Virus record (IMG/VR): IMGVR_UViG_3300030104_005895
Location: 1-25,970 of that record
Origin: a virus
Strand: one strand, 5' to 3'
Length of the DNA: 25,970 nt
Position numbers and translations under genes: made by a program. Under the pieces are notes generated by a model, which saw only the letters and a list, made by a program, of their open reading frames with translations, was not told where the DNA came from and did not search any database. Positions within the stretch are counted from its first letter, which is position 1. Every line of letters begins with the position of its first letter. Below are positions 2,566 to 25,970 of the stretch, one piece after another.

Positions 2566-3933
2566 GTGAATCTTGGCGAGCTGCTCGACTTCTGCGGCAA
2601 CCTTTTAGACTACGACCCGGTCAATACCACCTACCGGGCGCAGCTCGTCTCACTGCTCAACGACGCGCAGACGCGCACCCTGACCGATCGCCCCTGGGCA
2701 TTCGCGTCACAAGACCGAAAGCTGCGGGTCTACACCGACACGACCCTGAGCCTGACCTTCACGAATGGCAGTGCACAGGTGACCGGCGCCGGTCTGCCCG
2801 TCTCGACCGACCCCATCCTGCCCGGCAGCGCTCTCGCTATGGCGGAGCTCACCTTCGATGACAGCGGAGGCACATCCCACCGGTATCGCGTTGCCTGGGT
2901 GGAGCTCGCTACCAGGCTCTACCTTCGCAGACCCTACACCGGGGCGAGCGGAACCTATACGGTGACCGTCAAGCGTCGGCAGGTGCGCCTGCCCTCTGAC
3001 TGCATGACCCTTCAGAACGTCAGCGACCCAAAGGTGGGTATTCCTGCGAAGGCCTTGTTCCTGAGCAAGTGGGAACGCGAAGACGCCGACCTTGACCCAG
3101 ACCTCTTGGGCACCGTCGAAGCCTTCCTCCCGAGCGAAGGCAAGCGAGTACCGGCGCCGCAGGTGCCGCGCGGCGTCGCTATCGTTGCCGGTGTCGCTCA
3201 AGGCGCGCGGACGATCGACGTGTACATGTGCAACGTTCGCGGGCCCGCGGCGCAGAACTTCCCGACCTATCGCAAAGATGCGAGCTCGGGCTTCGAGTCT
3301 GCCCTCAGCAAGGTCGCGAGCTACACGCTGACAAATACGCAGACGCTAACATTCACGCCTGAGGCCTTAGCGAACCAGACCGGCCTCTATCGGCGGTACT
3401 ACTTCACCTGTGCCGAGGCCAATATCCTCGCACCGGTGCGAGTCACTCATGCAGACGCAGTTGACGCGCTAGCCGTCGGTGTCGACACCGTAGCCCCGAC
3501 GGGCGGTGTGACGCTCAAGCCGAGGCTCGGCCTGACACACCTGAGCGGGCAGGCCTTTCAGGCTGAGGCCATCCGCTACAGCTTCAACCAGGCCGGACTC
3601 TACCAGTCCGTCGAGCTCTACCCGCACCCGAGCGGCGACCAGGACATCAACACCCGCATGATCGTGGCACCGCCTCGCATGCAGGAGGACCAAGATGTGC
3701 CCCTGGTGCCTGCCGCCTACGCGCAGATCGTAGCCTATGCAGCGCTCGAGGCTCTAACCTTGAAGGTCGACAACCCTGCACTAGCCTCGGTCTACATGCG
3801 GAAGAAAGACGTGCTGTTCCGGGCCATGGAGCAGCGCTACCTGAAAGAAGTGCCCCGACGCATCATCAAGGGCACACCGACCGCGGGCTATCGCTTCGTG
3901 CGCAATCCCTTCGGCCCCCTGCGCTTCTCATGA
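2566..3933 (+). CDS. Head-tail adaptor-like protein
   Basis: This 455-aa protein begins with GTG, chosen because GAGGT lies six bases upstream, just past the terminator. The N-terminus (residues 1-45, with LLNDAQTRTLTDRPWAFA) is like the helical start of podoviral adaptors that dock under the portal, where 'rPW.fa' after a helical pair is common. A beta segment follows (about 55-75, LSLTFTNGSAQVTGAGLP). The C-terminus (about 390-440, AYAQIVAYAALEAL through RAMEQRYLKE) is again helical. The middle third (about 180-340) looks like an inserted beta-rich domain, making the protein longer than a T7 gp11-type adaptor of about 200 aa. Its last four bases overlap the next start (ATGA), so the two are translationally coupled. 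The function is inferred from motifs and order. Confidence 0.6.
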   Translation: MNLGELLDFCGNLLDYDPVNTTYRAQLVSLLNDAQTRTLTDRPWAFASQDRKLRVYTDTTLSLTFTNGSAQVTGAGLPVSTDPILPGSALAMAELTFDDSGGTSHRYRVAWVELATRLYLRRPYTGASGTYTVTVKRRQVRLPSDCMTLQNVSDPKVGIPAKALFLSKWEREDADLDPDLLGTVEAFLPSEGKRVPAPQVPRGVAIVAGVAQGARTIDVYMCNVRGPAAQNFPTYRKDASSGFESALSKVASYTLTNTQTLTFTPEALANQTGLYRRYYFTCAEANILAPVRVTHADAVDALAVGVDTVAPTGGVTLKPRLGLTHLSGQAFQAEAIRYSFNQAGLYQSVELYPHPSGDQDINTRMIVAPPRMQEDQDVPLVPAAYAQIVAYAALEALTLKVDNPALASVYMRKKDVLFRAMEQRYLKEVPRRIIKGTPTAGYRFVRNPFGPLRFS

Positions 3934-20813: not shown

Positions 20814-23102
20814 TCATGTGGTCGGGGTTGTGGGTGTCGCGTGGGTTGTGAGCTGGTACTCACTCCTTGTGAGTGCCCTGATGCTCAATAGACCGGTCTC
20901 TGCGGCCTCTCTCTTGGTGTCCTTGTAGTAGTAGGTGACTCCGCCCGAGCGATAGCGCCGGAAGCCCGCAGCATGCAGGGCGGAGCTCAAAGAGAGCCCG
21001 AAGCGCTGCGAGCTGAGGTTCACGTCAATCGCTCGAGCGAACTCGGCAACGGTGAAGCGGTTCGCGCGAGCTCCCCCGTTCTGCTCATACGCGCATGCGG
21101 CGCACTGACTGAACCAGTCCAGGTATTGGAAGACGCCATTCGCTCGACGTGCGAGGCTTGCCTCTCCCTTGCTCAGCCACCAGTGTTCACCGCGCTGGTA
21201 GGCGGTGTAGGCCTCGGCAAGCAGCTGCGCTCGGTACTTCCGCAACCACTCGAGGTTCGCGCCTTCACCCATGCAGGCCACCACCCAGTAGCGCCTGCTG
21301 CCCGTTCGGTCTCTGAGCACGTCTTGCTCGTTGCTTGTCATGGTGATGACGGTGTGCCGTCTGAAGGTCTTGAGCTTGCGCCCGAAGGGCGGCCGAAAGC
21401 GGTCGACTGCCGAGGTGATGAAGGCCTTGCGGGTCTCCTGGTCTGCGTTGCTGCTGCCTGCCATCTCTGCGTCTTCATAGATAAGAGCGCTATACAGCTG
21501 CAAATAGCTATCCTTATCCTTGATGTTAAACCGAGTGTCTGAAAAGAGGTCAGGCTGACCAGGCCAGTTCGCCCACTCTCGCCACACGCTGCTTTTCCCC
21601 CAGCCTTGTGGGCCGCTTAACAGCATGCACGTGTGCAGCTGACAGCCTGGGGAGAAGAGCCGAGCCATGAGGCCGATTGCCCACTTTCGCGCGTACACTC
21701 GGTAGATGGGCAGGTCTTCCGTGTGGCAGACCTCCATCAACCAGCGGTCGAGCCGCGGGCAGCCGTCCCACTCGAGGGTCTTGACATAGTCCTGCACAGG
21801 GTTGCGGGTAGATGCTCGACAGACGCTCTCCACAGCCGAGAAGAGCAGCTCTTTGCCGATACGCCAGTGCCATTCATACGCCACTTCCATGTGAGAGATG
21901 ACCCGCACCCAGATGCCATCATCAAGCACCTCATGCCCGTCCATCTCCTGTTCGCGGAACGCGTCAAACCAGAGGTCGAACTCGGCATCATGCGTCAGCA
22001 TCAGGCGCAGATTCGTCAGGATGTTGTACGGTGCCCCCTGCGTGCCGTCCTTCTTCGCAGGCTTGCGCATGAGCTCGGCCAGGCCTGGGCTCCGGGCAGG
22101 CTTGTAGCTGTTCCAGTAGGTAGTGGCAGTCGGTGCGCTGTAGTAGCGCATTCGGCCGTCAGCTTCCCTGTGGAAGAATCCCGAGCCGACCGAGGTGCCG
22201 CCGTAGGGGCAGATGACCTTTAGGCGCTCACCCGGCGCAAGGGCGTCAGCGCACTGCTGCCAGGTGCGTCCGTCGCTTAGGCGCTGCGTTCTGAAGTCGC
22301 AGTCAACCGAGCGCGTCTGCCTCGGGCGGCGTCGGGTAGGGATGAGCTTCTCGGCTGTCTTTGCCCGCTTGCCGTCGGTGAGCTGCCCTTGCTTGACGTG
22401 TGTCTTGCGCAGCAGCTCGAGAGCGTCTGCAGTAATGACGGTGTCCGAAGCGCTCACAACCTCAACGGGCTGCACTCGGTGCTTGGCTTTTGTGTTGTTG
22501 CTGCCCGGTGCTCGGGCAAGGCGGGCGCCTACGTCATGCGTCCTGTCAAAGGCCTTGTGGTAGGTCGTCAAGGGCGGGTGCATGCCCTGCGTATACTCAG
22601 AGGCCTTCTGGTTGCAGACGTCTACAACAGCTGCGTGCACCTGCTGCAAAGCGTCCTTGTTCTGCCGGATGCCTTCTTCCACGGCAAAGTGGAAGTGATA
22701 GCCCCAACCGCTGCAGATGGTGAGGGTAGGGGGCGCACCCATGACCGTCTCAAGTATCTGTCCGATGTCCTGCAACAGCACGTCAAGGCCTGCCTGCCGG
22801 TGCTTCTCCTTCATCGCATACATGTGCTTCTTTCGGTCGGCAGCACGCTCGGGCAGGATGTCACCCCGAGCGAGCCGGGCAGCATCTACGAGGCCGAGCA
22901 GGTCAAGGTCAAAGAAGAGCGAGGTGACACCGGCGCAGTTCTCGACGCTTCGGCCGCGGCCTTGCTGGTCAACGGTGCCCCGAGTGAAGTAGCCTGTGCT
23001 GATGTAGTCCCCACCCTTGAGGGACTGCTCGACGTAGCAGCAGCCCTCGGGCGGTGTCGGCCAGACAGAGCGGACGCGGACATCAGGATGCTGCGCGTTC
23101 AT
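20814..23102 (-). CDS. Primase-helicase (AEP primase plus VirE/VapE-type SF3-like ATPase)
   Basis: This 762-aa fusion likely starts phage DNA replication. The N-terminal archaeo-eukaryotic primase-like domain has FFDLD with metal ligands Asp65 and Asp67, SGWGYHFHF (131-139) and FDRTHDVGARLARAPGSNNTK (185-205). A short Cys-poor domain follows at 290-330 (CPYGGTSVGSGFF), where related proteins carry a zinc ribbon; the metal ligands look lost. The C-terminal VirE/VapE-type ATPase starts at NPVQDYVKTLEWDGCPRLDRWL. It has Walker A SGPQGWGKSS (Lys503), Walker B IYEDAEM (Asp544) and DRTGSRRYW with a likely arginine finger (598-605). It begins at ATG 23102 after GAGGT, overlapping the previous gene by 20 bases. 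Confidence 0.88.
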   Translation of the reverse strand: MNAQHPDVRVRSVWPTPPEGCCYVEQSLKGGDYISTGYFTRGTVDQQGRGRSVENCAGVTSLFFDLDLLGLVDAARLARGDILPERAADRKKHMYAMKEKHRQAGLDVLLQDIGQILETVMGAPPTLTICSGWGYHFHFAVEEGIRQNKDALQQVHAAVVDVCNQKASEYTQGMHPPLTTYHKAFDRTHDVGARLARAPGSNNTKAKHRVQPVEVVSASDTVITADALELLRKTHVKQGQLTDGKRAKTAEKLIPTRRRPRQTRSVDCDFRTQRLSDGRTWQQCADALAPGERLKVICPYGGTSVGSGFFHREADGRMRYYSAPTATTYWNSYKPARSPGLAELMRKPAKKDGTQGAPYNILTNLRLMLTHDAEFDLWFDAFREQEMDGHEVLDDGIWVRVISHMEVAYEWHWRIGKELLFSAVESVCRASTRNPVQDYVKTLEWDGCPRLDRWLMEVCHTEDLPIYRVYARKWAIGLMARLFSPGCQLHTCMLLSGPQGWGKSSVWREWANWPGQPDLFSDTRFNIKDKDSYLQLYSALIYEDAEMAGSSNADQETRKAFITSAVDRFRPPFGRKLKTFRRHTVITMTSNEQDVLRDRTGSRRYWVVACMGEGANLEWLRKYRAQLLAEAYTAYQRGEHWWLSKGEASLARRANGVFQYLDWFSQCAACAYEQNGGARANRFTVAEFARAIDVNLSSQRFGLSLSSALHAAGFRRYRSGGVTYYYKDTKREAAETGLLSIRALTRSEYQLTTHATPTTPTT

Positions 23103-24210: not shown

Positions 24211-24449
24211 TTTGCACCTGCCATGCGCTGCAGTGCTCTTCCTCGCGCAACGGCAATACCTCGGGCGAGCTCGTCTTCGTGCTTGAGAACTATCTTGGCA
24301 AGCGGTGCTAAACTTGGGTCTTCGGCAAGCATCTCCGCCCGCTTCTGCTCGTCTGCCTTGACGTAGTCCTCCACGGTCTGGCATGCGTCGTTGTAGTCGA
24401 GCGGGTCTCTGGCGAGGTGTATAAACTTGATTCGGTTTAGAATGCTCAT
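24207..24449 (-). CDS. Small helical unknown protein
   Basis: This 80-aa protein starts at ATG 24449 after AGGTGTAGA and overlaps both neighbours. It is mostly helical and acidic in the middle (DYNDACQTVEDYVKADEQKRAEMLAEDPS), with a C-terminus ALQRMAGAK. That tail and the DNA behind it repeat those of the gene immediately upstream (QALQRMAGVE), a 22-nt identity. No family is recognised. Confidence 0.6.
   Translation of the reverse strand: MSILNRIKFIHLARDPLDYNDACQTVEDYVKADEQKRAEMLAEDPSLAPLAKIVLKHEDELARGIAVARGRALQRMAGAK
24215..24236. repeat. Gene-junction direct repeat, copy 1 (22 nt)
   Basis: Identical over 22 nt to 24454-24475. On the minus strand it encodes ALQRMAG at the end of the gene ending at 24207 and includes the AGGTG ribosome site of the next gene. 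Confidence 0.9.
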
Positions 24450-24631
24450 TCTACACCTGCCATGCGCTGCAGTGCCTGGCGCTCAATGCGGCGGTTCTTG
24501 TCGGTCATGACCATTGGGCCGATGACCTGCTCGAAGTATTGAGGCACCGAGAGCTTGGCGAGGGCGGCCGCGGCCTTGATGTTGTACTCGAGCTCGGGGC
24601 TGAGGCGAGGACGAAAGGGCGTGGTGTTCAT
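24446..24631 (-). CDS. Small ribbon-helix-helix-like protein
   Basis: ATG 24631 is chosen for the AAGGAG eight or nine bases upstream. The 61-aa product reads RPRLSPELEYNIKAAAALAKLSVPQYFEQVI (7-37). A short strand, then a helix starting with SPELE and a second helix after LSV, matches the Arc/CopG-type ribbon-helix-helix pattern. A regulator of the divergent region is plausible. The C-terminus shares ALQRMAG with the next gene product. The fold is inferred from pattern only. Confidence 0.55.
   Translation of the reverse strand: MNTTPFRPRLSPELEYNIKAAAALAKLSVPQYFEQVIGPMVMTDKNRRIERQALQRMAGVE
24454..24475. repeat. Gene-junction direct repeat, copy 2 (22 nt)
   Basis: Identical over 22 nt to 24215-24236, offset 239 bp. 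It lies at the end of the gene ending at 24446 and includes the AGGTG before ATG 24449, the same positions relative to gene boundaries as copy 1. Confidence 0.9.
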
Positions 24632-24961: not shown

Positions 24962-25146
24962 GCGATGTGCCGAGCGATGCGGGCTGCGTCACTGTGCGAG
25001 AATTGGGCGAGGTCGAAATGAGAGGGCGTGCCCCGTTCCCACTGTTGGCGAAGGCAGCTCCACATCGTGACTGTGCGGTCGCGGTGGAGGATGATGGTGT
25101 TCATGCCGTCGCGGTCTGCTTTGCTGGGGCGGTCGGTGCGGTTCAT
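24958..25146 (-). CDS. First gene of the leftward operon, small unknown protein
   Basis: ATG 25146 is used because a strong AAAGGAG lies six bases upstream. The 62-aa product is basic at the start (MNRTDRPSKADRDGMNT) and contains IILHRDRTVTMWSCLRQQWERG and SHFDLAQFSHSDAARIARHIA. No family is recognised. Its ribosome site overlaps the arm of a 57-bp palindrome, so its translation or transcription may be controlled there. Confidence 0.6.
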   Translation of the reverse strand: MNRTDRPSKADRDGMNTIILHRDRTVTMWSCLRQQWERGTPSHFDLAQFSHSDAARIARHIA

Positions 25147-25155
25147 GCTTGGCTC

Positions 25156-25212
25156 CTTTGGGACAGGTGGGCCACATGTACCCACGGGACACTTGGCCCA
25201 CAAGTCCCAAAG
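25156..25212. repeat. 57-bp nested palindrome at the start of the leftward operon
   Basis: Outer arms CTTTGGGAC (25156-25164) and GTCCCAAAG (25204-25212) are perfect, as are inner arms TGGGCCA (25168-25174) and TGGCCCA (25194-25200). The gaps are 3 nt on both sides and the loop is 19 nt. In leftward RNA the outer arm includes part of the AAAGGAG ribosome site of the first gene. It may be an operator, an RNA switch-like hairpin or an origin element. Confidence 0.8.
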
Positions 25213-25251
25213 ATGTCAAGACCGTGTCAGGACCCTGTGCAGCCTTGTTAC

Positions 25252-25297
25252 ACCCTGCACAGCCCAAGAGCCCCGCCAGCTGCCCCGAGTGCAGGGT
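25252..25297. repeat. Inverted repeat unit A
   Basis: ACCCTGCAC (25252-25260) and GTGCAGGGT (25289-25297) are perfect inverse copies separated by 28 nt. The geometry is identical to unit B, 124 bp away, while the spacer sequences differ. Confidence 0.8.
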
Positions 25298-25321
25298 GGG
25301 CGACTTCTGCCCCCTTTTCTG

Positions 25322-25336
25322 TACTAGTGCATAGTA
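25322..25336. repeat. Short palindrome TACTA-N5-TAGTA
   Basis: Five-base arms (25322-25326 and 25332-25336) around GTGCA, in the AT-rich core next to the possible -10 element. It is a possible dimeric repressor site, though short enough to be chance. Confidence 0.4.
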
Positions 25337-25340
25337 TGTA

Positions 25341-25358
25341 TTTTCTATATTTAGAAAA
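25341..25358. repeat. Palindrome TTTTCTA-N4-TAGAAAA
   Basis: Seven-base perfect arms (25341-25347 and 25352-25358) flank TATT. It overlaps the TATATT rightward -10 candidate, as an operator would. Confidence 0.55.
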
Positions 25359-25375
25359 AGAGGAAAAAGGTACAC

Positions 25376-25421
25376 ACCCTGCACTCTGTGCATGAATAGG
25401 GCGTTTTGGGGTGTGCAGGGT
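25376..25421. repeat. Inverted repeat unit B
   Basis: ACCCTGCAC (25376-25384) and GTGCAGGGT (25413-25421) with a 28-nt spacer repeat the arms and spacing of unit A. The left arm shares two more bases (AC) with unit A upstream of it. Confidence 0.8.
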
Positions 25422-25458
25422 TAGAACCCCCGTCAACACGGTACTCTGGAGGTACTAC

Positions 25459-25701
25459 GTGCAAGCACTGATGACAACCGGGCAGATTCTCGAGGCCGTT
25501 GCGAAGCTCGCACCCGAGGCAATCAGCTGCATCGAGGGCACATTGCAGGGCCGACAGCAGCCCAACAAGGCGCAGCTCGATAGCGCCTGGCGGGTGCTGG
25601 AGTGGAGCAAGGAAGCGGCAGCAGACCGGGCGGAGAAGGCGACAGACACGCCCGACGTCGAGGAGCTCAAGAACGTGCTCAAGCTCGTGGAGCAGTGGTA
25701 G
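25459..25701 (+). CDS. Small protein, possibly terminase-small-subunit-related
   Basis: GTG 25459 is chosen for GGAGGT five bases upstream; ATG 25471 is an in-frame alternative. The 80-aa product reads LAPEAISCIEGTLQGRQQPNKAQLDSAWRVLEWSKEAA (17-54). This resembles the helical 'laPeAi..L..il......rl.AA..iL' segment found in small terminase subunits. The N-terminal HTH of such subunits is missing. The C-terminal third is acidic and helical (DVEELKNVLKLVEQW). It could be a terminase fragment or an unrelated early protein. Confidence 0.5.
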   Translation: MQALMTTGQILEAVAKLAPEAISCIEGTLQGRQQPNKAQLDSAWRVLEWSKEAAADRAEKATDTPDVEELKNVLKLVEQW

Positions 25702-25724: not shown

Positions 25725-25970
25725 ATGAAGGTACTGGAACTGTTTGCAGGAGCAGGCGGGGCAGCTCTTGGCCTTGAGGCAGCAGGCCTCGAGCACGCAG
25801 CGCTTGTGGAGCGTGACCCCGACGCTTGCGCCGTCATGCGGGCAGCGGGCCTGGCGCCTGTCGTCGAGGCTGACGTGCGCGACCTCGACACTATCGAGCG
25901 GTCGATCGTCTTGACCGAATCTGAAGCATGGCAGTTAGCCGGCGATCGTTTGCTCGACGTCAATGTGCCT
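25725..25970 (+). CDS. C5 cytosine-specific DNA methyltransferase (N-terminal part, open at window edge)
   Basis: ATG 25725 follows GAGGACAC by four bases. The 82 codons present start MKVLELFAGAGGAALGLEAAGLEHAALVERDPDA, which is motif I (SAM binding) and motif II of C5 methyltransferases. VVEADVRDL is a good motif III. The catalytic motif IV (Pro-Cys) has not been reached by the window edge. The last 27 codons (TIERSIVLTESEAWQLAG...) look unlike the short linker normally seen there. The enzyme would methylate cytosines, often to protect phage DNA from restriction. Confidence 0.8.
   Translation, partial: MKVLELFAGAGGAALGLEAAGLEHAALVERDPDACAVMRAAGLAPVVEADVRDLDTIERSIVLTESEAWQLAGDRLLDVNVP

Follow-up and report, generated by a model that had tools for sequence, protein, structure and literature searches.

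A mirrored iteron dyad as the probable replication origin of an uncultivated phage with a VapE-type primase-helicase

The dyad at 25252-25421 of the window is very probably an iteron-type replication origin of a phage of about 30 kb, read by the VapE-type primase-helicase of the same phage. The window is the whole stretch of 25,970 nucleotides analysed here, and it comes from an uncultivated virus record (IMG/VR). The assignment draws on sequence and analogy: arms, gap and mirrored layout are kept, the arms change together at the same locus, and two VapE residues follow the arm class; sister phages without VapE lack the dyad, D5/VapE helicases lie beside independent iteron clusters, and the origins of PICIs share the plan. 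The C-terminal winged helix of VapE would bind the four 9-bp iterons. By analogy with SaPI and PICI Rep, one helicase assembly would be loaded per unit, the AT-rich core of about 80 bp would melt, and two forks would depart in opposite directions, giving a bidirectional start. The features concerned are as follows.

20814-23102, minus strand: VapE-type primase-helicase, 762 aa, presumed initiator (Pfam PF05272, E 6e-61; PDB relative 7pds, E 1.6e-28)
20868-21125, minus strand: VapE codons 660-745, C-terminal winged helix in the AlphaFold2 model, presumed iteron reader
24446-24631, minus strand: 61-aa ribbon-helix-helix-like protein, disfavoured as reader (weak Pfam HicB match, below the cut-off)
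25148-25220, no strand: a pair of imperfect palindromes in tandem (GGGAC..TGGGCC..GTCCC type), immediately upstream of the leftward operon, from the repeat search
25252-25297, plus strand: left unit, iterons 25252-25260 (ACCCTGCAC) and 25289-25297 (GTGCAGGGT) with a 28-nt spacer, exact matches kept in relatives
25298-25375, no strand: AT-rich core separating the units, 78 bp, presumed melting region judged by AT content
25376-25421, minus strand: right unit, which repeats the left in inverted orientation, iterons 25376-25384 (ACCCTGCAC) and 25413-25421 (GTGCAGGGT)
25456-25701, plus strand: opening gene of the rightward operon, product of 76-81 aa, in small-terminase position, adjoining the large terminase in relatives

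The repeats are exact and real, and chance falls far short of explaining them. A sequence check bears out the preliminary description in the positions and exact identity of the arms (25252/25289 and 25376/25413), the 28-nt gap within each pair and the pitch of 124 bp. The window has a single case of 9-bp inverted arms paired at equal gaps within 250 bp, and 200 dinucleotide shuffles gave no such case. The core between the units is indeed AT-rich (62% AT, rising to 73% in its middle 59 bp), against a GC content of 61-64% in these phages. The spacers had been called unrelated, which is wrong: they are identical at 16/28 positions (57%) in mirror orientation compared with 5/28 (18%) in direct orientation, and the repeat search finds both units as a single inverted repeat with 69-nt arms that are 71% complementary. 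Since the right unit mirrors the left, spacers included, the whole is a dyad of about 170 bp around the 78-bp core. The arrangement was to be taken as chance if the 9-mer proved frequent elsewhere; apart from the dyad pairs the window holds one further exact copy, at position 3773, and with up to one mismatch there are 13 matches against 9.5 expected, so the 9-mer is not over-represented. A GC-skew switch at the dyad had been suggested as a check. The skew there is weak and uninformative, with no clear origin signal seen, and this counts against the origin reading, as does the location of the dyad, which precedes the VapE start by about 2.15 kb.

Four complete-looking relatives (G001, G003, G004 and G005) are about 30 kb long and have direct end overlaps at arbitrary positions. 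In all four the dyad is intergenic, between a leftward replication operon and a diverging rightward late operon. The leftward operon encodes small ORFs, the VapE primase-helicase, Erf-, RuvC- and RecB-like proteins and an SSB, labels that are partly our own reading. The late operon begins with the 76-81 aa protein and continues with large terminase, portal and capsid genes. A close relative was not found among named phages, where all VapE relatives have less than 60% identity and none covers 80% of the query, and no VapE relatives were found in bacterial genomes. The palindromes at 25148-25220 are probably a separate operator outside the dyad; other sequences occupy the counterpart site in relatives, such as the GGTACC-type palindromes of L009 and L012. 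The gene after the small-terminase candidate, at the contig end of the window (25725-25970), encodes a C-5 cytosine methyltransferase; in the complete relatives examined, the large terminase is the immediate next gene.

Conservation of the dyad was assessed in 26 IMG/VR stretches that contain one exact unit. A second unit with no more than one mismatch, at a pitch of 124-129, is present in 22 of these; three stretches end too early, and the remaining one (L024) was rejected as a dyad carrier, its lone unit being a chance match within repetitive DNA. Related phages thus keep the arms and the 28-nt spacing, and the proposal of a protein binding at fixed geometry is well supported by the kept arms, gap and mirrored layout. 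The core is 78-83 bp long among the class-1 relatives listed. Just inside the outer arm, the two halves of the dyad in several relatives share sequence that varies from phage to phage (TCTTGAGAA in L047, AGAC in L056, ACACCC or ACCCC-like in L040), suggesting that the halves evolve together.

Other arms are found at the same locus. Class 2 arms are ACCCGTCCC, with gaps of 36-37 nt (L010, L011, L013, L064-L066 and L068), and CCCCCCTC-like arms occur in the same layout in L057-L063. TGCACT iterons, at a pitch of 113-129, are also found in more distant phages that share a related large terminase and VapE; five of these phages (L144, L151, L153, L155 and L159) have four iterons per half, up to eight in total. 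The TGCACT dyad is not found in the sister phages L147, L138 and L160, in which a different protein of 970-1,090 aa replaces VapE. L147 and L138 carry several CTATATATAG repeats in its place, intergenic and upstream of the large terminase. In the VapE phage L131/L171 the TGCAC dyad was not found; GGAATGG repeats in both orientations lie some 555-465 bases ahead of the large terminase in L131, and these may, tentatively, be the iterons of that phage.

VapE has a C-terminal domain that is most likely the iteron reader. The AlphaFold2 model is modest overall (mean pLDDT 70, pTM 0.38), and residues 660-745 form a mostly ordered block (pLDDT about 70-91) with the helix-helix-helix-strand-strand order of a winged helix. 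The predicted recognition helix (702-712) contains residue 706 and the wing (715-726) contains residue 723. Among 14 VapE proteins of the TGCAC class, with identity down to 51%, 244 positions are invariant. Four of the 244 differ in class 2 (429, 589, 706 and 723) and eight in class 3, 429 and 723 among them, a covariation that rests on few independent changes because the class 2 and class 3 proteins are a single lineage each. Residue 723 in the wing changes from T to K or N in both classes, and residue 706 in the recognition helix from S to A in class 2. When VapE, the 61-aa protein and the small-terminase candidate are compared, invariant residues that follow the arm class occur only in VapE.

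The preliminary description had named the HTH-like or ribbon-helix-helix-like product of the leftward operon as a candidate ligand, with the 162-aa and 61-aa proteins in mind, and neither has held up. The 162-aa protein is rejected as reader, as several phages that keep the dyad lack a detectable homologue. The 61-aa protein is nearly identical in L037 (class 1, ACCCTGCAC arms) and L013 (class 2, ACCCGTCCC arms), so its sequence is independent of the arms, and changes in the putative operator do not track the ribbon-helix-helix protein. None of its four invariant TGCAC-class positions is altered in classes 2 or 3, and the same is true of the 19 in the small-terminase candidate (25456-25701), which is likewise disfavoured as reader; this test is weaker for both proteins because they are short. 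The protein in terminase position in L029 (9739-10221) has a zinc-ribbon-like N-terminus. Those of L147, L138 and L160 have 149-153 aa with an extra N-terminal part, and the protein is short in the window; profile comparison of the two kinds aligned only 13 columns, so their relation rests on inspection.

PICI origins consist of an AT-rich region between two sets of iterons (PMC6092414), and in SaPI Rep the C-terminal domain reads the iterons, apparently as two hexamers (PMC7581432). The dyad is alike in having two iteron sets around an AT-rich region and in its pairing with an initiator primase-helicase from the same element, and the iteron-reading C-terminal domain of Rep has a candidate counterpart in the predicted winged helix of VapE with its class-following residues. 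In PICIs and SaPIs, however, the origin lies directly 3' of the initiator gene, while the dyad lies well 5' of it, heading the replication operon between divergent operons. The dyad also differs in having only four iterons, arranged as two mirrored inverted pairs whose arms are always 28 nt apart, and in being carried by a phage that has structural genes of its own. In satellite phage P4 (alpha/ori/crr), the primase-helicase alpha recognises repeated short sites, as proposed here for VapE, and the P4 iteron probably differs from that of the dyad. P4 alpha and its ori are also mentioned in the PICI work (PMC6092414).

Similar clusters occur in phages outside this group. A wider scan with the pattern CCCTGCAC-N24-40-GTGCAGGG found mirrored clusters of up to 13 iterons. 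A D5/VapE helicase is encoded within 1.2 kb of 19/23 clusters with at least six iterons compared with 2/76 loci with three or fewer, an association that is partly by construction, since the D5 loci were found via the iteron and the helicase profile was partly seeded from them. Pfam matches and the Marinobacter pelagius case are independent of the hand-chosen seed loci: the neighbouring proteins that were tested contain DUF5906, some of them together with TOPRIM, Prim-Pol, D5_N or Pox_D5, and among 12 stretches of bacterial genomes with the unit, only that of M. pelagius has paired units and an adjacent helicase. Eighteen of the 19 helicase-linked clusters sit directly 3' of the helicase gene, and the neighbours on their far side are varied. 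The D5/TOPRIM-primase clusters, such as those of Moraxella phage Mcat1, Stenotrophomonas phage S1 and M. pelagius, share with the dyad the iteron CCCTGCAC/GTGCAGGG, which in S1 is the variant GTGCGGG. Their unit gap is most often 27 nt (13/38), followed by 36-38, and their core is 71-103 bp, sometimes without AT-richness. They differ from the dyad in having 8-13 iterons, mostly with tandem copies, directly 3' of the primase-helicase, and in a DUF5906 helicase with a C-terminus other than that of VapE.

The preliminary description left the choice between an iteron-like origin and a divergent operator. The origin is well supported; the operator is the weaker part and may be a second role. As the main function, it is unlikely that the dyad is a divergent operator/promoter, at which a regulator bound to the mirrored units controls the leftward replication and rightward late operons. 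The setting would suit it, since both operons start at the dyad, each unit faces its own operon, and the region must hold promoters. However, a sigma-70-like promoter was not found in 25100-25520, the 61-aa and 162-aa proteins fail as readers, and the clusters of unrelated phages lie 3' of a helicase gene and not between divergent operons.

Two further explanations have other proteins as readers. A host protein found widely among bacteria is very unlikely to be the iteron reader that recruits the phage initiator. Such a protein would account for the same iteron at 27-28-nt spacing beside initiators with unrelated C-termini, but arm class and VapE recognition residues change together between close relatives, and the S1 iterons are variant beside an initiator of 51% identity. 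A packaging (pac/cos) site read by the adjoining small terminase is also very unlikely, despite the small-terminase position of the 76-81 aa protein, whose gene comes immediately ahead of the large terminase in relatives. That protein has no class-following residue, and inspection shows it to be missing the N-terminal part present in the longer sister-phage proteins; L029 retains a class-1 unit beside a very different protein in this position; the dyad is absent from sister phages that lack VapE yet have a related large terminase; and terminase genes do not follow the clusters of L219 and L285.

Beyond the VapE phages, the origin reading can be extended only tentatively. It is possible, with the balance somewhat against it, that ACCCTGCAC-N27/28-GTGCAGGGT, mirrored around a core of about 80 bp, is a portable origin module of VapE-type and DUF5906/D5-type primase-helicases, the consensus across unrelated phages having arisen by module exchange, by convergence or through a shared reader. 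Profile comparison detected no homology between the VapE and D5-type C-termini, a point against the main reading, so a third, shared reader is conceivable. To our knowledge there is no published description of the D5-side clusters as origins, and a literature search by iteron sequence gave nothing on phage origins among the matches listed.

The dyad and VapE would provide a defined origin, an initiator and a code for their specificity in an environmental phage group of which a cultured member was not found in this analysis, and the DNA signature may pick out phage origins straight from sequence. Given the natural iteron classes and the few candidate residues, exchanging two or three residues would put initiator-origin specificity to the test. 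The presence of the same iteron beside differing helicase types also raises the question of how phage origins evolve.

The records of Moraxella phage Mcat1 and Stenotrophomonas phage S1 carry no origin annotation at the clusters, which lie 3' of the primase in both. The primases of S1 and L213 share 51% identity. In S1, the annotated hypothetical gene gp2 (L287, 2454-2804) overlaps the GTGCGGG/CCCGCAC cluster 3' of the primase, and it is likely that this region is not a gene but an origin.
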